Source: Chryseobacterium sp. G0162 (GTDB lineage Bacteria; Bacteroidota; Bacteroidia; Flavobacteriales; Weeksellaceae). Taken from it: DNA of 64,000 bases. Below, one piece after another: positions 17,779 through 59,134 of the stretch (its first letter is position 1; the number at the start of each line of letters is the position of its first letter). The stretch covers positions 3,148,001 to 3,212,000 of the forward strand of contig NZ_CP033922.1 of assembly GCF_003815715.1 (NCBI RefSeq). Direction: 5' to 3'. The notes beneath the pieces are model-generated. The model saw only the letters and a list, made by a program, of their open reading frames with translations, was not told the origin of the DNA and ran no database searches. The translations under genes were made by a program, and so were the position numbers.

Positions 17779-17873
17779 GTTATTTTACTTTTAAAAGTTA
17801 AAATAGTCTTCGGTACATGGAAATGAAATACAATACCGCAAGAGCCCATGAAGGATCTTACCGTATGTCTCAT

Positions 17874-17991
17874 TTTCTTCTCCCATCCAGACTTTAACTG
17901 TCGGTTTTGGAATTTCACCAAATCAGTCCCTTCAAATGAAAGGAGTCGCGGACTGTAACCGCCGGTAGGGAATTACACCCTGCCCCGAAGA
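17874..17991 (-). promoter_or_regulatory. FMN riboswitch (RFN element)
   Basis: On the minus strand the conserved RFN blocks appear in order: TTCGGGGCAGGGTG, AATTCCCTACCGGCGGT, AGTCCGCGA, CTGATTTGGTGAAATTCC, AAAACCGACAGT and AGTCTGGATGGGAGAAGA. It sits about 95 bp upstream of the ribB start and should bind FMN to shut down ribB. No obvious terminator was seen between aptamer and ATG, so control of translation is plausible. Aptamer identity is firm; mechanism is inference. Confidence 0.97.
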
Positions 17992-18140
17992 AAACTTATA
18001 CTAAGTTTTACTGTATGTTTTGATTTAAATTTTTATTTCATTAAAAATATTTAATACACAGGCCGCTAATTTCGGAAAGTTTTCTGAAATGAGAAAGGGT
18101 TTTTCGATAGGAATTTTCAATGGCTGATTGGTTTTTTAAA

Positions 18141-46573: not shown

Positions 46574-46975
46574 TCAATTAATTTTTCTCCCATAAACGGT
46601 GATTTTTATATTTGGAATAATATGTAAAATAATGCCTTTACCCAAACTTATACTAAAACTGGATTGTTTTGTAATTTTACCGTTAGCATCATAAAATGTT
46701 CCAGTTGAAGAGTATGCTATTTTACCATTGTCATGATAAGCAGTTCCAGTTGGAGAGTATGCTATTTTGCCATTATCATGATAAGCAGTTCCGGTTGAAG
46801 AGTATGCTATTTTACCATTGTCATGATAAGCGGTTCCAGTTGAGGAGTATGCTATTTTACCATTGTCATGATAAGCAGTTCCAGTTGAAGAGTATGCTAT
46901 TTTGCCATTGGCATGATAAGCAGTTCCTGAGTCTGACCATTTAATTTTTTTATTTTCATGATATGTTGTTGACAT
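46574..46975 (-). CDS. short MORN-like tandem-repeat protein
   Basis: A 133-residue protein built of about six 15-residue repeats of the type GTAYHDNGKIAYSST, encoded by 45-bp DNA repeats. The pattern resembles MORN/toxin_YwqK-type repeats (Y-x-N-G-K). The ends are a short N-terminal cap and a C-terminal hydrophobic strand region (ISLGKGIILHIIPNIKITVYG). It has no signal peptide. Repeat number could change by slippage. It sits between two groEL 3' remnants. Confidence 0.75.
   Translation of the reverse strand: MSTTYHENKKIKWSDSGTAYHANGKIAYSSTGTAYHDNGKIAYSSTGTAYHDNGKIAYSSTGTAYHDNGKIAYSPTGTAYHDNGKIAYSSTGTFYDANGKITKQSSFSISLGKGIILHIIPNIKITVYGRKIN
46694..46923. repeat. 45-bp in-frame tandem repeats
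   Basis: About five near-identical 45-bp units containing GAGTATGCTATTTTRCCATT and TCATGATAAGCAGTTCC. They encode the 15-residue repeats of the overlapping protein; units differ by a few bases. Confidence 0.9.
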
Positions 46976-51646: not shown

Positions 51647-51925
51647 TTACCCTATAATTCCTAATAAGTCAGCTTCTTTTACAATTAAGTAATCTTTACC
51701 TTCTAACTTCAATTCAGAACCTGAATATTTTCCATAAAGAACTTTGTCACCTACCTGAACCGTTGTAGGTTCATCTTTTTTACCAGGTCCTACTGCCACT
51801 ACAGTACCTTCTTGCGGCTTTTCCTTTGCAGTATCCGGGATAATAATACCTGAAGCTGTTTTAGTTTCTGCTGCGATTGGCTCTACCAGAACTCTGTCTG
51901 CCAATGGTTTAAAGTTTACTGACAT
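51647..51925 (-). CDS. groES: co-chaperonin GroES (10 kDa chaperonin)
   Basis: A complete 92-residue Gro[46 protein letters not shown] contains the mobile loop (around [12 protein letters not shown]), then [34 protein letters not shown]. It caps the GroEL ring. It is the first gene of the groES-[S23]-groEL unit. Two TGGCAGA direct repeats 31 bp apart lie upstream and may be regulatory. Confidence 0.99.
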
Positions 51926-52036: not shown

Positions 52037-52051
52037 AAAATAAAAAACAGA

Positions 52052-52073
52052 AAGCCGGAAAATTCCGGCTTTT
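52052..52073. terminator. perfect hairpin terminator after mini-peptide gene 1
   Basis: AAAGCCGGAA and TTCCGGCTTT form a perfect 10-bp stem around a 2-nt loop, with A- and T-rich flanks on both sides. It separates the peptide cluster from the groES promoter region. Confidence 0.9.
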
Positions 52074-52106: not shown

Positions 52107-52241
52107 TTATGGACAATATTGTCCCGGTCCGATCCATAAGATACATTGTCCTTTGTAATTGTACTCACAGCAAAAGCGTCCTGCCGCACCGCCGTTGATT
52201 GATTTCTGAGCATCTCTGCTTAGTAATTTGGCATTTTTCAT
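52107..52241 (-). CDS. GG-leader mini-peptide 1 (cysteine-containing, bacteriocin/RiPP-like)
   Basis: A 44-residue peptide read from the ATG at 52241: leader MKNAKLLSRDAQKSINGG, then AAGRFCCEYNYKGQC and ILWIGPGQYCP. The leader ends in GG (residues 17-18), as in peptides matured by C39 peptidases on export. The core has CC-x7-C-x9-C and ends WIGPGQYCP. Two paralogues follow upstream with the same cysteine spacing. Four cysteines could form two disulfides or be modified. No dedicated exporter or modifying enzyme is next to the cluster. Peptide function is inferred, its reality is supported by strong conservation of three copies and by its own terminator. Confidence 0.88.
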   Translation of the reverse strand: MKNAKLLSRDAQKSINGGAAGRFCCEYNYKGQCILWIGPGQYCP

Positions 52242-52267
52242 AGTTAATAATATTTAATTTGTATACT

Positions 52268-52293
52268 TCCTGAGCGTTTAAAGTCAATCAGGA
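52268..52293. promoter_or_regulatory. shared upstream element of mini-peptide gene 1
   Basis: Minus strand TCCTGATTGAC-TTTAAACG-CTCAGGA: ends TCCTGA/TCAGGA are an inverted repeat. Mini-peptide gene 3 carries nearly the same segment at 52930-52953, at almost the same distance from its ATG. Confidence 0.5.
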
Positions 52294-52481
52294 TTTTGAC
52301 ATTTGGTGTTATAAAATCAATCAAAGATAAGTTTTTTTCCATTATGTGTGATATATTTTAATTTTTTTTTAAAAATTAATTAATTGGTTATCAGTTGTTA
52401 TCTGTTCTTTTTATATGGTTAAAAAAATGAATGATAAAACTTATTGAGATAAGATCGTTATAACAAAGGAGAATATAAAAA

Positions 52482-52509
52482 AAGAAGCCGGAAAAATTTC
52501 CAGCTTCTA
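52482..52509 (-). terminator. terminator after mini-peptide gene 2
   Basis: Minus strand: AGAAGCTGGAAA pairs with TTTCCGGCTTCT (one U-G) around TT, followed by TTTTTTT. Confidence 0.85.
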
Positions 52510-52530
52510 TATCATCTTTTTTATTAGGAT

Positions 52531-52671
52531 TTATGGACAATATTGCCCCGGTCCGATCCATAAAGTACAGTTCCCATTTCTGTCTTTTTCGCAGCATTTG
52601 ATTTTGGCTGTAACAATTCCTCCGCAAATCACTTTTTGAGCGTCTCTGTTTAATAGTTTTGCATTTTTCAT
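52531..52671 (-). CDS. GG-leader mini-peptide 2 (cysteine-containing, bacteriocin/RiPP-like)
   Basis: A 46-residue peptide from the ATG at 52671: leader MKNAKLLNRDAQKVICGG, then IVTAKIKCCEKDRNGNC and TLWIGPGQYCP. Leader and core agree with peptides 1 and 3: GG at 17-18, CC-x7-C-x9-C, invariant WIGPGQ-aromatic-CP end. An extra cysteine sits in the leader (ICGG). It has its own terminator at 52482, so the three peptides may be expressed separately. Its upstream region lacks a full copy of the element shared by 1 and 3. Confidence 0.88.
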   Translation of the reverse strand: MKNAKLLNRDAQKVICGGIVTAKIKCCEKDRNGNCTLWIGPGQYCP

Positions 52672-52764
52672 AGATAATGATGTTGAATTTGTATGATTCT
52701 TCAAGTATTCTTATTTAGTTCAGGATAATACTTTTGAAATCATTTTTTATTCTTACCCTTTATT

Positions 52765-52905
52765 CTATGGACAAAATTGCCCTGGTCCGATCCAGCGGAT
52801 ACATTTCATACGGTCATCATAATCACAACAAACAAGTTTTGCAGTAGATAACCCTCCACGAATGGATTTCTGTGTGTCTCTGTTTAGTAACTTTGCATTT
52901 TTCAT
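52765..52905 (-). CDS. GG-leader mini-peptide 3 (cysteine-containing, bacteriocin/RiPP-like)
   Basis: A 46-residue peptide from the ATG at 52905: leader MKNAKLLNRDTQKSIRGG, then LSTAKLVCCDYDDRMKC and IRWIGPGQFCP. It keeps the exact cysteine spacing CC-x7-C-x9-C and the WIGPGQ end (Phe in place of Tyr). The residues between cysteines vary freely among the three, as in diversified antimicrobial or signalling peptides. No terminator is seen directly after it. Confidence 0.88.
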   Translation of the reverse strand: MKNAKLLNRDTQKSIRGGLSTAKLVCCDYDDRMKCIRWIGPGQFCP

Positions 52906-52929: not shown

Positions 52930-52953
52930 TCCTGAACATTTAATGTCAATCAG
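52930..52953. promoter_or_regulatory. shared upstream element of mini-peptide gene 3
   Basis: Minus strand CTGATTGACATTAAATGTTC followed by AGGA, matching the element at 52268-52293 in 20 or so positions and lying 25 bp before the ATG. Confidence 0.5.
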
Positions 52954-53066
52954 TTTTTTTGACAGCTTGTGTTTTTATTGTTGATTCAAAGGTAAATGTT
53001 TTTAATACAGGTTGTTAAATCGTTTGTAGACAGAGGGCTGTTGTTGATATTTTAATATCTGTCTTT

Positions 53067-53789
53067 TTATGAGGTCATCTCCAGAAACATTTTTCTTCCA
53101 TTCATATCCATTTCCTGTTTCACAATTTTTCTTGTTACAGGATCAATATAGTAGGTGGTGGTAGTGGTTTTGTTACTGATATCGTCATTTGTTTTCACAA
53201 CCCAGACCGTTTTTCCTTTATATTCTGACTTTTGGGTATCCAGAATATAAGCTTTCATCATTCCTTTTTTCTCAGATTTTGGGTTGTAGTCGAAAATAGA
53301 AATTTCGGCAGAATAGTGTTCTTTCCATGGAAGAAATCTTATCAACATTGCATAACTGCTGCTGTCAAAATATTGAATTGCCGGAATATCAATATTATCT
53401 TTTTTCTGCGTCTTTTTATCCAGATAATATCCGGTCACTTTATCTTTATCGGACTTCAGAACCATGTCTCGCATGGAGTTGTAAGAAGAATGATATTCCG
53501 GGGTGAAATTTGAGGTTTTTACAATAGTAGAATCTGTCCATTGAGCATCAGGAGCTTGTTTCATTTTCACTGTTGTTTTGATAAGAAGATCTGTTTTGTT
53601 CAGCTTTTTGATTTCTGTAATAATACTTCCGATTTCTATTTTTGTACCGGCATTTTCAGCATACCATACAGATTCTGATGTTTCATCTTTGATTAATTTA
53701 GAATTGATCTGTATATTTTCAGGAGTAAGAAGCTGCTGTGAAAGGAGATTCGCACTGCTCACTAATAAAAGGAATAAGAATGTTCTCAT
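53067..53789 (-). CDS. exported hypothetical protein
   Basis: A 240-residue protein with signal peptide (MRTFLFLLLVSSANLLSQQ). The mature part is beta-rich (AGTKIEIGSIITEIKKLNKTDLLIKTTVKMK, YYIDPVTRKIVKQEMDMNGRKMFLEM) and resembles DUF3108/LolA-like periplasmic or outer-membrane-associated proteins that carry a lipid-binding beta-sheet. No catalytic motif is visible. It lies upstream of the mini-peptide cluster on the same strand with no clear link. Confidence 0.72.
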   Translation of the reverse strand: MRTFLFLLLVSSANLLSQQLLTPENIQINSKLIKDETSESVWYAENAGTKIEIGSIITEIKKLNKTDLLIKTTVKMKQAPDAQWTDSTIVKTSNFTPEYHSSYNSMRDMVLKSDKDKVTGYYLDKKTQKKDNIDIPAIQYFDSSSYAMLIRFLPWKEHYSAEISIFDYNPKSEKKGMMKAYILDTQKSEYKGKTVWVVKTNDDISNKTTTTTYYIDPVTRKIVKQEMDMNGRKMFLEMTS

Positions 53790-53870: not shown

Positions 53871-55091
53871 TTAAACAGAAATCTTTTTACTTTTCTGTTG
53901 TTGATTGATCTTTGAAATAATAGCTCCGGAAACGGCAATTCCTATAAAGTTGGTTACCGATCTGGCCTCATTCATAAAACGATCCACACTGTAAAGAAGG
54001 GCAATATCTGTCAACGGAATTTTCCCGAATCTGTTCAAGGTGAAAATAAGAGCCAGAAATCCTGAACCAGGCACACCGGAGGCTGTTTTTGAGGTAATAG
54101 AAACGATGATAAAAAGCCACAGATAATCATTGAGACTTAACGAAATCGCATAAAACTGAACCAGAAAACAACAAGTCACGGAAAGATAGATACAGGCTCC
54201 GGCAAGATTAAAATTATATCCTAAAGGAATAATAAACCTTAAAATTTTCCTGCTGTATCCTTCAGATTCCATTTTTTCAAAAATGAGAGGGAAGGCTGCT
54301 TTAGAAGATGAGGTACTGACTACCAGGATAATTTCTTCTTTGATGTTCAGTAAAAATTTCCAAAGATTGAACTTGAAAACATAAGAAACAGCCCCCAGAA
54401 TTCCAAAAATAAATACAATATCCGCTATATATACAGTGGCAACTACTTTACTCAGGGGAAGAAGGGTATTGAGACCATATACAGAAACACCATAGGCGAT
54501 ATTACAGAAAATAATGAGGGGAAGAATGATGTAAAGGTACTTAATGACCGTATAAAAAATATTCACACCCTGATCCAATATATTCAGGAATTTTTCTTTT
54601 TTTGAAGAAAAATTCATAGCAATTCCGATCACAATAGAGAGGAATAGAAAAATACCATGCCTGTTGAGATAGATAAGGTTGGGCACACTATCATCTTTAA
54701 TTTCAAATGTTTTGGGTAAAGCTGTATTGATTTTGGTGACATCTATTCCTGTATCAGAACCGGGCTGCATCATTAACCCAAAAACGAAACCTAAGATAAT
54801 AGCGATGGAAGTGATTACCAAAAAATATAAAATCGTCTGCCATACAATATTTCGGGCATTTTTGAGATCAGATAGCTGGCTGATTCCATATACCACTGCC
54901 ATAAATATAACAGGAAGGATCAGTGTTTCCAGGATCATGAAAAAATACCGGCTCACCACTCCCATCCTTATACTTTCCTCAGGAACATAATGACCAGCCA
55001 ATACGCCTCCTATCATTGCTGTAAACACATACAATGTAAGATTTTTAAGATATTTTCCGGTAAATGTTTTTTGAGATTGTAAGGATTTCAT
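53871..55091 (-). CDS. DAACS-family dicarboxylate/amino acid symporter homologue with altered cation-site residues
   Basis: A 406-residue inner membrane protein of the GltPh/DctA family. Hairpin 1 STSSSKAAFPLIFE (serine-rich STSSS) and hairpin 2 SKTASGVPGSGF are typical. However, the TM7 motif usually NMDGT or NLDGT reads NLAGA (in GYNFNLAGACIYL), and in TM8 (SVDRFMNEARSVTNFIG) two acidic residues of the usual D-x3-D-x2-R-x3-N-x3-D pattern are replaced (second D to N, last D to I). Arg and Asn are kept. This suggests changed or lost sodium coupling. It may transport C4-dicarboxylates or amino acids. Confidence 0.9.
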   Translation of the reverse strand: MKSLQSQKTFTGKYLKNLTLYVFTAMIGGVLAGHYVPEESIRMGVVSRYFFMILETLILPVIFMAVVYGISQLSDLKNARNIVWQTILYFLVITSIAIILGFVFGLMMQPGSDTGIDVTKINTALPKTFEIKDDSVPNLIYLNRHGIFLFLSIVIGIAMNFSSKKEKFLNILDQGVNIFYTVIKYLYIILPLIIFCNIAYGVSVYGLNTLLPLSKVVATVYIADIVFIFGILGAVSYVFKFNLWKFLLNIKEEIILVVSTSSSKAAFPLIFEKMESEGYSRKILRFIIPLGYNFNLAGACIYLSVTCCFLVQFYAISLSLNDYLWLFIIVSITSKTASGVPGSGFLALIFTLNRFGKIPLTDIALLYSVDRFMNEARSVTNFIGIAVSGAIISKINQQQKSKKISV

Positions 55092-55179: not shown

Positions 55180-56466
55180 TCATATGGTTCCAAGAACTAA
55201 TGCTCCTAAAAGCATAATAATTGATGATCCAATTGCCCATTTTAAAGTATACTTCAGGTGGTCAGAATATTCTACACCGGCTAAGGATACCAACAGATAA
55301 GTGGAGGGAACCAACGGACTTAATAAGTGGGAAGCCTGACCAACAAGGCTTGCTCTTCCTAATATTTCAGGGGCAATATCCAGCTGACGTCCTGTAGCCT
55401 CAATAATAGGTAATATCCCAAAATAATACGCATCATTCGTAAGAAAGAAAGTAAGAGGAACACTGAAAATTGCTGTAATAATATTCAGATAACTGCCCCA
55501 ACTTTTGGGCACAATATCTATCATACTATTTCCCATAGCCTGCATGATGCCGGTTCCATTAAGAATCCCCGTAAAGATTCCTGCTCCAAAGATCATTCCT
55601 GCTACAGACAAAGCATTTCCGGCATGTTTTGAAATAATTTTCTGCTGGTCTTTCAACTTGGGATAATTGATGACAGAGGCAATACAAAAGGCAATCATAA
55701 AAGCAATCCCTAAAGGAACAATGTCTAATATCATTACCGTTAATAGAACGAGAGTCAATATTAAATTCACCCAGATCAGTTTTGGACGAAGAAGCTGAGG
55801 ATCAGATTCTCCCGCAATGTCTCCTGTACTGTATTTCGTATACTTCCCATATTTTGCAATGCGTTTCTTTTCTTTTTTTCCCAGAATGTAGGCCACAAAA
55901 ATTACCCAGATAATACCTAAAGCCATGATAGGAATCATAGGCACAAAAATTTCGGTGTGTCCCAGTTTCAGGGAGCTCATCACTCTTGCCGTAGGACCTC
56001 CCCAAGGTAAAATATTCATAATTCCACCAGCCAGCATGATGATGCAGGTCAGCGTTAATGGATTCATTCCTTGTTTTTTATATAAAGGAAGCATGGCTGC
56101 AACAACAATAATATAAGTGGAAGAACCATCACCATCCAGAGAAACCAATGTGGTAAGGATAGCGGTTCCAATCGTTGTTTTGACAGGGTTGTCTCCAACT
56201 GCTTTTAAAATAAGATTGACTAATGGCTCAAAAAGCCCGGTATCTATCATTAAACTGAAATAAAGGATGGCAAAGATGAGCATAACCCCTGTAAGGGCTA
56301 TTTCCTTGACTCCATTTTTCATCATTTCTCCCAACTGAGGTCCAAAACCTGCTAAAAATGCGATGGCTACAGGAATAATGACTAAGGCAGTAAGAGGAGT
56401 CATCTTTTTATTCATGATAAGCACCATAAAAATGATGATCATCAAAAATCCAAGGAATGTAAGCAT
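55180..56466 (-). CDS. CitMHS-family metal-citrate:proton symporter
   Basis: ATG 56466 (MLTFLGFLMIIIFMVLIMNKKM) is chosen; the open frame upstream overlaps the DUF2490 gene. The 428-residue protein has about 12 helices and the CitMHS features MTPLTALVIIPVAIAFLAGF, VSLDGDGSSTYIIVVAAMLPLYKKQGM and GGIMNILPWGGPTARVMSSL. The family imports citrate complexed with Mg2+ or Ca2+ and similar ions. It follows the DUF2490 outer membrane gene by 20 bp; a divergent LytS/LytTR system likely controls both. Confidence 0.92.
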   Translation of the reverse strand: MLTFLGFLMIIIFMVLIMNKKMTPLTALVIIPVAIAFLAGFGPQLGEMMKNGVKEIALTGVMLIFAILYFSLMIDTGLFEPLVNLILKAVGDNPVKTTIGTAILTTLVSLDGDGSSTYIIVVAAMLPLYKKQGMNPLTLTCIIMLAGGIMNILPWGGPTARVMSSLKLGHTEIFVPMIPIMALGIIWVIFVAYILGKKEKKRIAKYGKYTKYSTGDIAGESDPQLLRPKLIWVNLILTLVLLTVMILDIVPLGIAFMIAFCIASVINYPKLKDQQKIISKHAGNALSVAGMIFGAGIFTGILNGTGIMQAMGNSMIDIVPKSWGSYLNIITAIFSVPLTFFLTNDAYYFGILPIIEATGRQLDIAPEILGRASLVGQASHLLSPLVPSTYLLVSLAGVEYSDHLKYTLKWAIGSSIIMLLGALVLGTI

Positions 56467-56485
56467 AGATGGTTTGTATTTGAGG

Positions 56486-57178
56486 TTATTTATTTTTATT
56501 TTTTCTCCAGTCAAAATTGTTTCGATAGCCGATATAGGCATAGTTACTGGTAGATCCGGTTTCCAGCTGGTTGATAAAAGCAACTTCTATGGCTGAGTTT
56601 TTTCCTGTTTTTATTCCTATCCCGGCGGTTAAACGGTTGCTGTCGAATGTTTCTTCTTTGCTGGCATTCATTCGGATTTCATTTTTCAGGATCCCATAAA
56701 ATCTTTCTTTCTCCCCGGTTTTATTGAATGGGATTCTTAATGAAATAAGATAGCGAAGCCTTACAATGAATTCATCCGGATTGCTTATGAACCGTTCTTC
56801 CACACGAAATCGGTGAGAAATAGAAGTTCTTCCGATATTGCCCCCCAGGCTCACCTGTTGGAAAGGTCTTTTTTCATACCTTTCTTTTTTGGTATTATCA
56901 GACTTGTAAGAGTCCAGAATAAGAAACATGGCTCCTACAGCAGGCCTTACCTCATTAGCAACTTCATAATCTACGTAAGCAGAAACCAGAAAAAGTCTGG
57001 TGTCATAGGCCAGGTCAAAAGACCGGTATTGGGAAAGGGCTGTCAAGGTACTTTTATCTGTAAGTTTTGCAGACATAAGGTATTGGAACCACATATTATA
57101 ACTGTCCCGGCTTTGAGCCATCACAAATTGACTTGCACCTAGTAGAAAAAAGGTGATTAATGATAATTTAACTTTCAT
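56486..57178 (-). CDS. DUF2490 outer membrane protein
   Basis: A 230-residue protein with signal peptide (MKVKLSLITFFLLGASQFVMAQ). The mature part follows the DUF2490 pattern: YNMWFQYLMSAKLTDKSTLTALSQYRSFD, then VSAYVDYEVANEVRPAVGAMF, HRFRVEERFI and LRYLISLRIPFNK, an outer membrane barrel of likely 10-12 strands. It is the first gene of an operon with the citrate transporter, so it may serve as the outer membrane entry or as a structural partner. Confidence 0.88.
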   Translation of the reverse strand: MKVKLSLITFFLLGASQFVMAQSRDSYNMWFQYLMSAKLTDKSTLTALSQYRSFDLAYDTRLFLVSAYVDYEVANEVRPAVGAMFLILDSYKSDNTKKERYEKRPFQQVSLGGNIGRTSISHRFRVEERFISNPDEFIVRLRYLISLRIPFNKTGEKERFYGILKNEIRMNASKEETFDSNRLTAGIGIKTGKNSAIEVAFINQLETGSTSNYAYIGYRNNFDWRKNKNK

Positions 57179-57329: not shown

Positions 57330-58436
57330 ATGTTTTTTATTATAAATATTGTATTTATATTATTGATTTTTAGAGTTTTACTTAGTGGTAAGATTTTAAA
57401 GAGACTGATGGAATATCATTGGGGGCTTTTGCTGAAGTTTCAGCATATTTTCTTCTTTTTCTTCTTCTTTATCATCACTTTTTTCACCGAAAACTACTTT
57501 TTGGATGTTCCGGAGCTCATTTGGTCCGTATTATTTGTGATTATTTTCAATGTTGGGATTTACTATCTGGTCTATTTTTATCTGGTACCCAGGTTTTATC
57601 TTTCCAATAAGTATCCGGAGTTTATTCTGTATGCATTTATCTGCTTTTTGGTATCAAGCCTGTTTAGAATTTTGCTGGAACCTGCCGTGTTTAATATGAA
57701 ATTTGATGAAACACTATCCAACACAAAATTCCTTTACAATGTGTATACTGCTCAGGGTATTGTTATATTGGTAGCCTCATTTCTGGGAATTACTAAGGAT
57801 AAATTTCTGATTGAACAGGATTTTAAAAACTTAGGGGAAGAAAAAGACCAACTGTATCTTGACCTTTTAAAATCAAAATTAAACCCTCATTTTTTACTGA
57901 ATACCCTTAATAATATTTATTCGAAAAGCTTTAATCCATCTGAGAAAACATCGGAGTCTATCTTGCAGTTAAGCCGCTTATTGCAGTATGTTATTTATGA
58001 TACCAATAAGGAAAAGATTACGCTTATGCAGGAGTTTTCAACGATTAAATCATTAATTGGGCTTTACCAGTTAAAGTATAATAACCTACTGGATATCAGT
58101 TTTGAAATAAAAGATGAAGAAACATTGGAGCTCATTGAAGTACCTCCATCAGTTTGCCTTACCTTATTTGAAAATGCCCTGAAACATTCAGCAGTGGGGA
58201 TTGAAGGAAATAGCTTTATCAGTGTATTTTATAAAATACAGGATCAGGAACTATCATTTGAAATTAAAAATTCTGTGGCAAAGAACCGGAATCTTGTGAA
58301 TAACGTTAATGATAATGGATTGGGAAATGAAGCAGTCATCAGCATTCTGGAAAAATACTACCCTGAAAGATTTACTTTTATATCAGAAGCGGCTATGAAT
58401 AATACATACGAAACTACTTTAAAAATTAAACTATAA
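57330..58436 (+). CDS. LytS/YehU-type sensor histidine kinase
   Basis: A 368-residue kinase with about four to five hydrophobic helices in the first 155 residues, no large periplasmic domain, then a coiled linker and the His_kinase region KSKLNPHFLLNTLNNIYSKSF (phospho-acceptor His187) and a HATPase with NDNGLGNEAVISILEKYYP (G-box). This is the LytS-type layout. The start codon of the LytTR regulator gene overlaps its stop. Substrate sensing may be through the membrane helices, with the divergent citrate genes as likely targets. Confidence 0.93.
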   Translation: MFFIINIVFILLIFRVLLSGKILKRLMEYHWGLLLKFQHIFFFFFFFIITFFTENYFLDVPELIWSVLFVIIFNVGIYYLVYFYLVPRFYLSNKYPEFILYAFICFLVSSLFRILLEPAVFNMKFDETLSNTKFLYNVYTAQGIVILVASFLGITKDKFLIEQDFKNLGEEKDQLYLDLLKSKLNPHFLLNTLNNIYSKSFNPSEKTSESILQLSRLLQYVIYDTNKEKITLMQEFSTIKSLIGLYQLKYNNLLDISFEIKDEETLELIEVPPSVCLTLFENALKHSAVGIEGNSFISVFYKIQDQELSFEIKNSVAKNRNLVNNVNDNGLGNEAVISILEKYYPERFTFISEAAMNNTYETTLKIKL

Positions 58437-59134
58437 TGGCTAACCTCACTATCGTAGGAGTGGATGATGAATATCCCGCGTTAGAACTTATCCGGCACTA
58501 TTGTGACCGGATAGAAGATATCGATTTGCTGGAGATATTTCAGAACCCGGAAGAGGCGCTGCAATATTTGCAGAAGAATAGAGTAGATCTGGTTATTCTG
58601 GATATTAATATGCCTTATATCAATGGGATTGATCTTTTACTTAAACTTCCCTATAAACCATTATGTATATTTCTTACATTGGAAACTCAATATGCCGTTA
58701 AAGCATTTGAATTGGATGTTGTGCATTATCTGGTGAAACCTGTAGACTTTGAAACATTTAAAAGAGCAGTCTATAAAGCAAAGGATTTTTTACAGTTTAA
58801 ACAATCTGCAGAAGATAAAAAACAGGAAGATTTCATTATGTTCAAGTCTAATTATATCATGAATAAAGTTCTTCTTCAAGATATAAAATGGGTTCAGGGA
58901 TTTGGAGAATATATTATTTTAATCACCCATTTGAAAAAATATATGATCTTAGAGCGGATGTCTAATTTTGAAGAAAATTTTCAAAATTTAGGATTTATCA
59001 GGATTCATAAATCCTATATTGTTCTTTCTTCTCATATCAGTTCATATGATTCGAATACAATTTATCTGAAAGGAGGAGAGCAGCTCCCATTGGGAAGAAC
59101 TTACAAAAAACACCTGAAAGAATATTTGGGGTAA
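58436..59134 (+). CDS. LytTR-type response regulator
   Basis: A 232-residue regulator. The receiver domain has VGVDDEYPALEL, phospho-acceptor Asp56 (LVILDINMPYINGID), Thr in FLTLET and Lys in YLVKPVD. The C-terminal LytTR domain is about 128-230: FIMFKSNYIMNKVLLQDIKWVQGFGEYIILIT, NFEENFQNLGFIRIHKSYIVLSSHI and LPLGRTYKKHLKEYL. It overlaps the kinase gene by one base. LytTR domains bind DNA direct repeats; the palindrome in the divergent gap is a candidate target. Confidence 0.95.
   Translation: MANLTIVGVDDEYPALELIRHYCDRIEDIDLLEIFQNPEEALQYLQKNRVDLVILDINMPYINGIDLLLKLPYKPLCIFLTLETQYAVKAFELDVVHYLVKPVDFETFKRAVYKAKDFLQFKQSAEDKKQEDFIMFKSNYIMNKVLLQDIKWVQGFGEYIILITHLKKYMILERMSNFEENFQNLGFIRIHKSYIVLSSHISSYDSNTIYLKGGEQLPLGRTYKKHLKEYLG

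Follow-up and report, generated by a model that had tools for sequence, protein, structure and literature searches.

The window, a stretch of 64,000 nt from Chryseobacterium sp. G0162, encodes three short peptides on the minus strand, next to the chaperonin genes (Table 1). The ORF translations agree with a preliminary description of this DNA in the position of the genes, in a leader with GG at residues 17-18 and in a CC-x7-C-x9-C / WIGPGQ[YF]CP core, and the Cys spacing is identical in peptides 1-3. The core that follows GG is 26-28 residues long. An additional leader Cys of peptide 2 is absent from that description. Also as described, two of the genes (1 and 3) share an upstream element, and terminator-like hairpins are present 3' of two (genes 1 and 2). 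The stretch contains three terminator-like sites, compared to 0.4 expected from shuffles, and one of the three is the plus strand reading of the hairpin after peptide 1. The gap between peptide 2 and peptide 3 is only 93 nt, and peptide 2, with no upstream element of its own, is probably co-transcribed with peptide 3. There would then be two transcription units (peptide 3-peptide 2, and peptide 1), each headed by the conserved element.

Table 1. Features of the peptide locus and its surroundings, in window coordinates.
Feature	Position	Strand	Description	Sequence
groEL			lower-coordinate side, beyond the 23S_rRNA_IVP-family ORF; named by eye	
23S_rRNA_IVP-family ORF, 119 aa	51236-51595	-	between groES and groEL	
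groES	51647-51925		lower-coordinate side of peptides; named by eye	
Terminator-like hairpin after peptide 1	52051..52072	-		
Peptide 1 precursor, 44 aa	52107..52241	-	leader 1-18 (GG), core with 4 Cys	MKNAKLLSRDAQKSINGG / AAGRFCCEYNYKGQCILWIGPGQYCP
Conserved element of peptide 1	52270..52300	-	potential H-type pseudoknot	GTCAA..CCTGATTGAC..TCAG
Candidate -7 promoter box of peptide 1	52322..52329	-		TATCTTTG
Terminator-like hairpin after peptide 2	52483..52508	-		
Peptide 2 precursor, 46 aa	52531..52671	-	leader 1-18 (extra Cys16), core with 4 Cys	MKNAKLLNRDAQKVICGG / IVTAKIKCCEKDRNGNCTLWIGPGQYCP
Peptide 3 precursor, 46 aa	52765..52905	-	leader 1-18 (GG), core with 4 Cys	MKNAKLLNRDTQKSIRGG / LSTAKLVCCDYDDRMKCIRWIGPGQFCP
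Same element upstream of peptide 3	52932..52963	-	outermost stem 2 pair lost (ACTGA)	
Candidate -7 box of peptide 3-peptide 2 unit	52987..52994	-		TACCTTTG
DUF3108	53067-53789		higher-coordinate side of peptides	
SDF symporter	53871-55091		higher-coordinate side	
CitMHS transporter	55180-56583		higher-coordinate side	
DUF2490	56486-57178		higher-coordinate side	
Histidine kinase (PF06580)	57330-58436	+	candidate partner; 4.4 kb from peptides	
LytTR-domain response regulator	58436-59134	+	candidate partner; DNA-binding	

A relative of the 23S_rRNA_IVP-family ORF was identified in 15 of 55 related loci, so this gene comes and goes inside the chaperonin operon. Elsewhere in the window, an FMN riboswitch at 17871-17996 (minus strand, 122.8 bits) is the only Rfam family match, and a 133-aa ORF of tandem TGTAYHDNGKIAYSS-type repeats is present at 46574-46975 (minus strand).

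The preliminary description tied the reality of the genes to homologues in related genomes and to selection on the peptide sequence, and both were found. The family occurs in 90 of 173 genus genomes (E<=1e-8); an earlier draw identified relatives in 83 of 148 genomes (E<=1e-5), some via a sister family only. A scan of one genome per species returned 55 loci, all of them from Chryseobacterium. Uncorrected core pN/pS in four orthologue groups is 0.041 (21 genes), 0.061 (12 genes), 0.052 (16 genes) and 0.045 (5 genes), in a set of 59 genes of which five fall outside every orthologue group. The value between paralogues of one genome is 0.286. Because of this distribution and the low core values within groups (0.04-0.06), we conclude that the peptides are genuine genes. 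The genes are short and easily missed by gene calling, which would suit spurious ORFs without a product, but the selection pattern and the wide occurrence of the family refute that explanation and leave it a negligible probability. Public names of the relatives are mostly "hypothetical" or "uncharacterized protein". The AF2 model, built on 8 sequences and with a pTM of 0.37, predicts a core beta-hairpin (strands 25-29 and 35-39; pLDDT block means of 84-93), and Foldseek returned no fold match to it below E 5.5. A PHROGs search with the peptides gave nothing usable. The sole solved-structure profile match, to a stretch of GABA-B receptor subunit 2 (best E 0.036), was taken as chance.

The preliminary description could match the peptides to no family. 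This holds for genes 2 and 3 in NCBIfam and for all three genes in Pfam, but gene 1 has sub-threshold similarity to two NCBIfam models, NF047798 (leader_Chryseo; 16.6 bits, under the 23.5 cut-off) and NF047792 (CCPGW putative bacteriocin; 12.4 bits, cut-off 80). NF047798 stands for GG leaders of 18 residues that precede a short, Cys-rich core in Chryseobacterium or its kin, and the peptides have each of these features. On sequence, their leader is a divergent NF047798 "bacteriocin-like" leader that scores below the cut-off: the length, the layout MKN..K.L.R...K.I.GG, the Cys-rich core and the genus are the same, but A is found at -15 and Q at -7, where L occupies 32 and 30 of 42 leaders, respectively. 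Double-glycine leaders exported by C39 proteins have G-G/A/S at -2/-1 and hydrophobic residues at -4, -7 and -12; the peptide leaders have GG, I at -4 and L at -12, with Q at -7. Within the same genome, three clustered genes at 1939844-1940660 are the nearest relatives; they share the CC-E core start and Q at -7 but have six Cys and finish in C-x2-C-x-CP where peptides 1-3 have WIGPGQ[YF]CP. The YGNGVxC motif of class IIa bacteriocins is absent from peptides 1-3. The peptides thus represent a divergent branch, with unusual conservation, of a class that is known but blank in function.

That class is large in the host genome (5.28 Mb, single contig). We identified at least 80 NF047798 matches, at least 45 of them over the cut-off, with counts that are lower bounds since scoring covered 150 of 173 first-look candidates. 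A repertoire set was made from 77 of the 80 places (three weak ones omitted) and three more from another genome search; removal of one 290-aa false positive left 79 precursors, which form 36 clusters across the genome. The core Cys count is even in 76 of these (one with two, 29 with four, 42 with six and four with eight), compared to 49 of 78 control ORFs from the window (30-110 codons, at least two Cys). Even counts are what intramolecular disulfides would give. They extend over 60 of the 63 distinct Cys spacings. Of the three exceptions, one is a 12-residue core that seems truncated and another has five Cys; the third, a peptide at 1452315, resembles by eye the TIGR04139 peptide at 1772542. 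Eight cores have the Cys order C-C-CC-C-C, familiar from knottins. A second local expansion comprises five tandem precursors at 1007761-1008634 (L079:2762-3635), four of which share a C-x5-C-x4-CC-x3-C-x4-C core. The precursor at 4870620-4870670 (L026) is unlike the others, with a long GGVVGGVIGGVG repeat followed by four Cys. Among the matches listed, the open-access literature contains no paper on a Chryseobacterium GG-leader peptide repertoire. The three window genes are probably a conserved subfamily of this repertoire, encoding exported, Cys-bridged peptides.

The preliminary description expected export by a C39 system and suggested a search for a linked exporter. Lacking in the neighbourhood of the peptide genes are both a C39 exporter and a named immunity gene; the likely exporter is encoded about 1.4 Mb away. 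The genome encodes two C39 proteins. One, matched at 1777755 (C39-ABC gene 1777746-1779938), belongs to a VKOR/C39/HlyD locus (1771000-1783000, L077). A VKOR and Thioredoxin_4 fusion precedes it and HlyD comes after it, GG precursors flank it on both sides, and a grasp-with-spasm pair is present farther upstream. The VKOR-Trx protein is single copy in the genome (protein search). The other C39 protein (L078:5346-7553) adjoins LanB-like and LanC-like proteins, which together with the C39-ABC form a probable class I lanthipeptide locus (4021000-4034000).

The leaders and the VKOR-Trx oxidase co-occur across 246 family genomes (leaders E<=0.01, VKOR-Trx E<=1e-10), where leader counts are lower bounds from at most 35 scored candidates per genome. 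Within the genus (n=99), 92 genomes have both, one has the leader only, none the oxidase only and six neither; outside it (n=147) the numbers are 13, 4, 6 and 124 (Fisher p = 6e-9 and 4e-11, respectively, kinship ignored). The oxidase is present in all 53 WIGPGQ genomes among the 99, and none of the seven genomes that lack it encodes WIGPGQ peptides. Family context and this co-occurrence support C39 export, though probably by a remote rather than a linked protein. We infer that the VKOR-linked C39-ABC locus exports, cleaves and oxidises the peptides. Given the A at -15 and the Q at -7 of the leader, it is uncertain whether the shared exporter recognises these peptides, and the additional leader Cys of peptide 2 also counts against this reading. 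The C39 domain of this ABC exporter, encoded remotely with HlyD and the VKOR-thioredoxin oxidase, would cut after GG, and the core would exit the cell and be closed by two disulfides into a small hairpin. The lanthipeptide-associated C39 exporter, the only other C39 protein found and the one with a slightly better C39 score, could handle the peptides instead, or both exporters could do so; this is quite unlikely, considering that it sits with LanB/LanC-like proteins whereas the VKOR-linked exporter is flanked by GG precursors.

The element upstream of genes 1 and 3, but not gene 2, has the form GTCAA-(A-rich)-CCTGA-TTGAC-(about 9 nt)-TCAGG. This order (A-B-A'-B') permits an H-type pseudoknot with two 5-bp stems, as do 41 of 20,000 dinucleotide shuffles. 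Some version of the element is present in 116 of 127 distinct family genes; gene 2 and five relatives of gene 2 are among the 11 that lack it. TAnnTTTG is the consensus of the Bacteroidota-type -7 box. It occurs within 50 nt upstream of the element in 107 of the 116 genes (chance is 1.5% anywhere in 50 nt), and the distance is 27-31 nt in 100 of these. The element should therefore be transcribed. With its end 18-29 nt from the start codon, it probably sits in the 5'-UTR. The exact pattern was found in 50 of the 246 family genomes, 49 of which bear WIGPGQ, and the reversed pattern in none; the two off-locus sites fall within open frames (1010 and 837 codons). A role as a general signal of the repertoire was rejected, as the exact pattern occurs only twice in the host genome, at genes 1 and 3. 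An Rfam search left the element itself unmatched at E<=1, and the hits close to the cluster fall far short of the gathering scores.

Alignment A2 (33 rows chosen from 42 distinct elements, some retrimmed) contains no double change and no covariation signal. Alignment A3 (34 rows, comprising 30 earlier and four divergent elements, with near-duplicates omitted) shows two double changes, which a single sequence carries in stem 2; this was reached by 4 of 500 shuffles, and slid structures show up to two pairs with double changes. The double changes occur in one lineage (G119, G312), in which stem 2 is CCCAA/TTGGG, and other copies have G-U forms of this stem. Sequence comparison therefore provides modest evidence for pairing of stem 2. 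The element could instead be a protein-binding DNA site with two interleaved dyads, a reading that we place only a little short of even. It would fit the lack of covariation of stem 1 in any alignment and the five copies that break an end pair (stem 2 outer in window peptide 3 and L054, stem 2 inner in L138, stem 1 outer in L051 and L052), but would not predict a position downstream of TAnnTTTG at a mostly fixed distance, nor the double changes and several G-U forms that preserve stem 2. Read as an RNA, the element is a small candidate regulatory RNA.

The histidine kinase and LytTR regulator are linked to the peptides well beyond this genome. Across 173 genomes (kinase E<=1e-50, at most 11 candidates scored per genome), 78 have both the kinase and WIGPGQ peptides, 12 the kinase only, 12 the peptides only and 71 neither (Fisher p = 5e-23, kinship ignored). 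The kinase is within 8 kb of the peptides in all 77 genomes with both on one contig, and within 1.2 kb in 31. Two gene orders were identified. groES comes after the peptides in 36 of 55 loci, and a convergent LytTR gene is located 55-215 nt past the last peptide in 18 of the 19 loci without groES; the contig of the remaining one ends after the last peptide. Five loci of the second order read peptides, LytTR, kinase, DUF2490, CitMHS, SDF, groES, groEL. In 15 of 20 longer stretches, mostly of the first order, this block lies at the opposite side of the peptides, which is also the arrangement of the window. In a set of loci (L252-L256) the peptides, with DUF3108 where seen, occur at either end of the LytTR-kinase-DUF2490-CitMHS-SDF block depending on the species, a local relocation. 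Short-range rearrangement keeps neighbours together even without function, and the kinase pair, which travels in one block with DUF2490, CitMHS and SDF, may serve those transporters instead. LytTR genes are common (20 matches in the host genome), and proximity to them is not significant across the repertoire (5 of 36 clusters within 8 kb, random-shift mean 2.3, 353 of 5000 shifts as high).

If partnered with the peptides, the linked pair would respond to them or control them. We consider it evenly balanced whether export and disulfides go together with some role beside the kinase pair. Any ranking of functions is weak: a signal falls somewhat below even odds, and a bacteriocin-like function and some other function are each unlikely. 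The conserved core, the kinase/LytTR neighbour and the peptides' own element suggest signalling, and we lean slightly to a signal over an antimicrobial because the linked pair steadily accompanies the peptides. A full Bacteroidota circuit, in which a conserved, disulfide-closed GG pheromone would leave by the remote exporter/oxidase that it shares with about eighty further peptides, be sensed by the linked kinase/LytTR pair and be controlled by a 5'-UTR pseudoknot, is improbable. Among the matches listed, no open-access paper deals with GG-peptide/LytTR signalling in Bacteroidota.

By analogy, the leader class and the bacteroidetocin precedent suggest antibacterial peptides. Unmodified class II bacteriocin-like peptides, likewise exported and oxidised, could hit a conserved target of related bacteria in the manner of bacteroidetocins, with the kinase pair incidental or merely controlling production. 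The leader class is named bacteriocin-like, UniRef applies the name "Bacteriocin" to 4 of 38 relatives, and bacteroidetocin loci are reported to pair C39-ABC with a thiol oxidoreductase and to lack an immunity protein (PMC6671954). However, the core hardly varies, unlike that expected from a narrow-spectrum arms race, and the kinase/LytTR pair is a constant neighbour, making this explanation doubtful. A binding or surface function of the secreted peptides, apart from any competition or signalling, is improbable too: the conserved vicinal CC, the WIGPGQ motif and the strong conservation would suit it, but the preference for even Cys numbers across 63 spacings is better matched by disulfides than by one metal site, and the kinase linkage also argues against this.

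If the reading of the peptides as exported and Cys-bridged is true, each genome of this one environmental genus would supply about eighty distinct secreted mini-peptides with disulfide bridges and more than sixty Cys spacings, exported largely via a single shared exporter/oxidase. Genome mining that relies on an exporter next to the precursor would overlook most of these. The WIGPGQ peptides, a conserved and regulated case with an adjoining candidate sensor pair, would provide a handle on the role of the repertoire.

Bacteroidetocins are reported to kill Bacteroidota by way of BamA. They have leaders of 15-16 aa and cores of 42-48 aa, and are encoded in a four-gene region (PMC6671954). They share with the window peptides a Bacteroidota host, a GG leader, four Cys, by count, in the mature peptide and, with the remote locus as the probable machinery of the window peptides, a C39-ABC exporter and a thiol oxidoreductase; in neither case was an immunity protein found. 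They differ in that the window peptides have an 18-aa leader, a 26-28-aa core, a remote exporter and a kinase pair nearby. The genes for an exporter, a thiol oxidoreductase and a TM protein that adjoin bacteroidetocins are replaced here by groES/groEL, DUF3108, SDF, CitMHS, DUF2490, the kinase and the LytTR regulator. Streptococcal quorum sensing by ComC/ComDE involves a GG-leader peptide beside a histidine kinase and a LytTR regulator. By analogy, the peptides and the kinase/LytTR pair, which show the same linkage, could be a pheromone circuit of this kind, with the difference that the kinase is of the PF06580 type, the linkage is looser and extends up to 8 kb, the host is Gram-negative, disulfides are expected and the response to the peptide is putative; 12 peptide-bearing genomes are without this kinase. 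In prochlorosins, many scattered precursors are lanthionine-modified by one enzyme. The repertoire resembles these in its many scattered precursors and few processing proteins, but disulfides, not lanthionine, are expected in the Chryseobacterium peptides.
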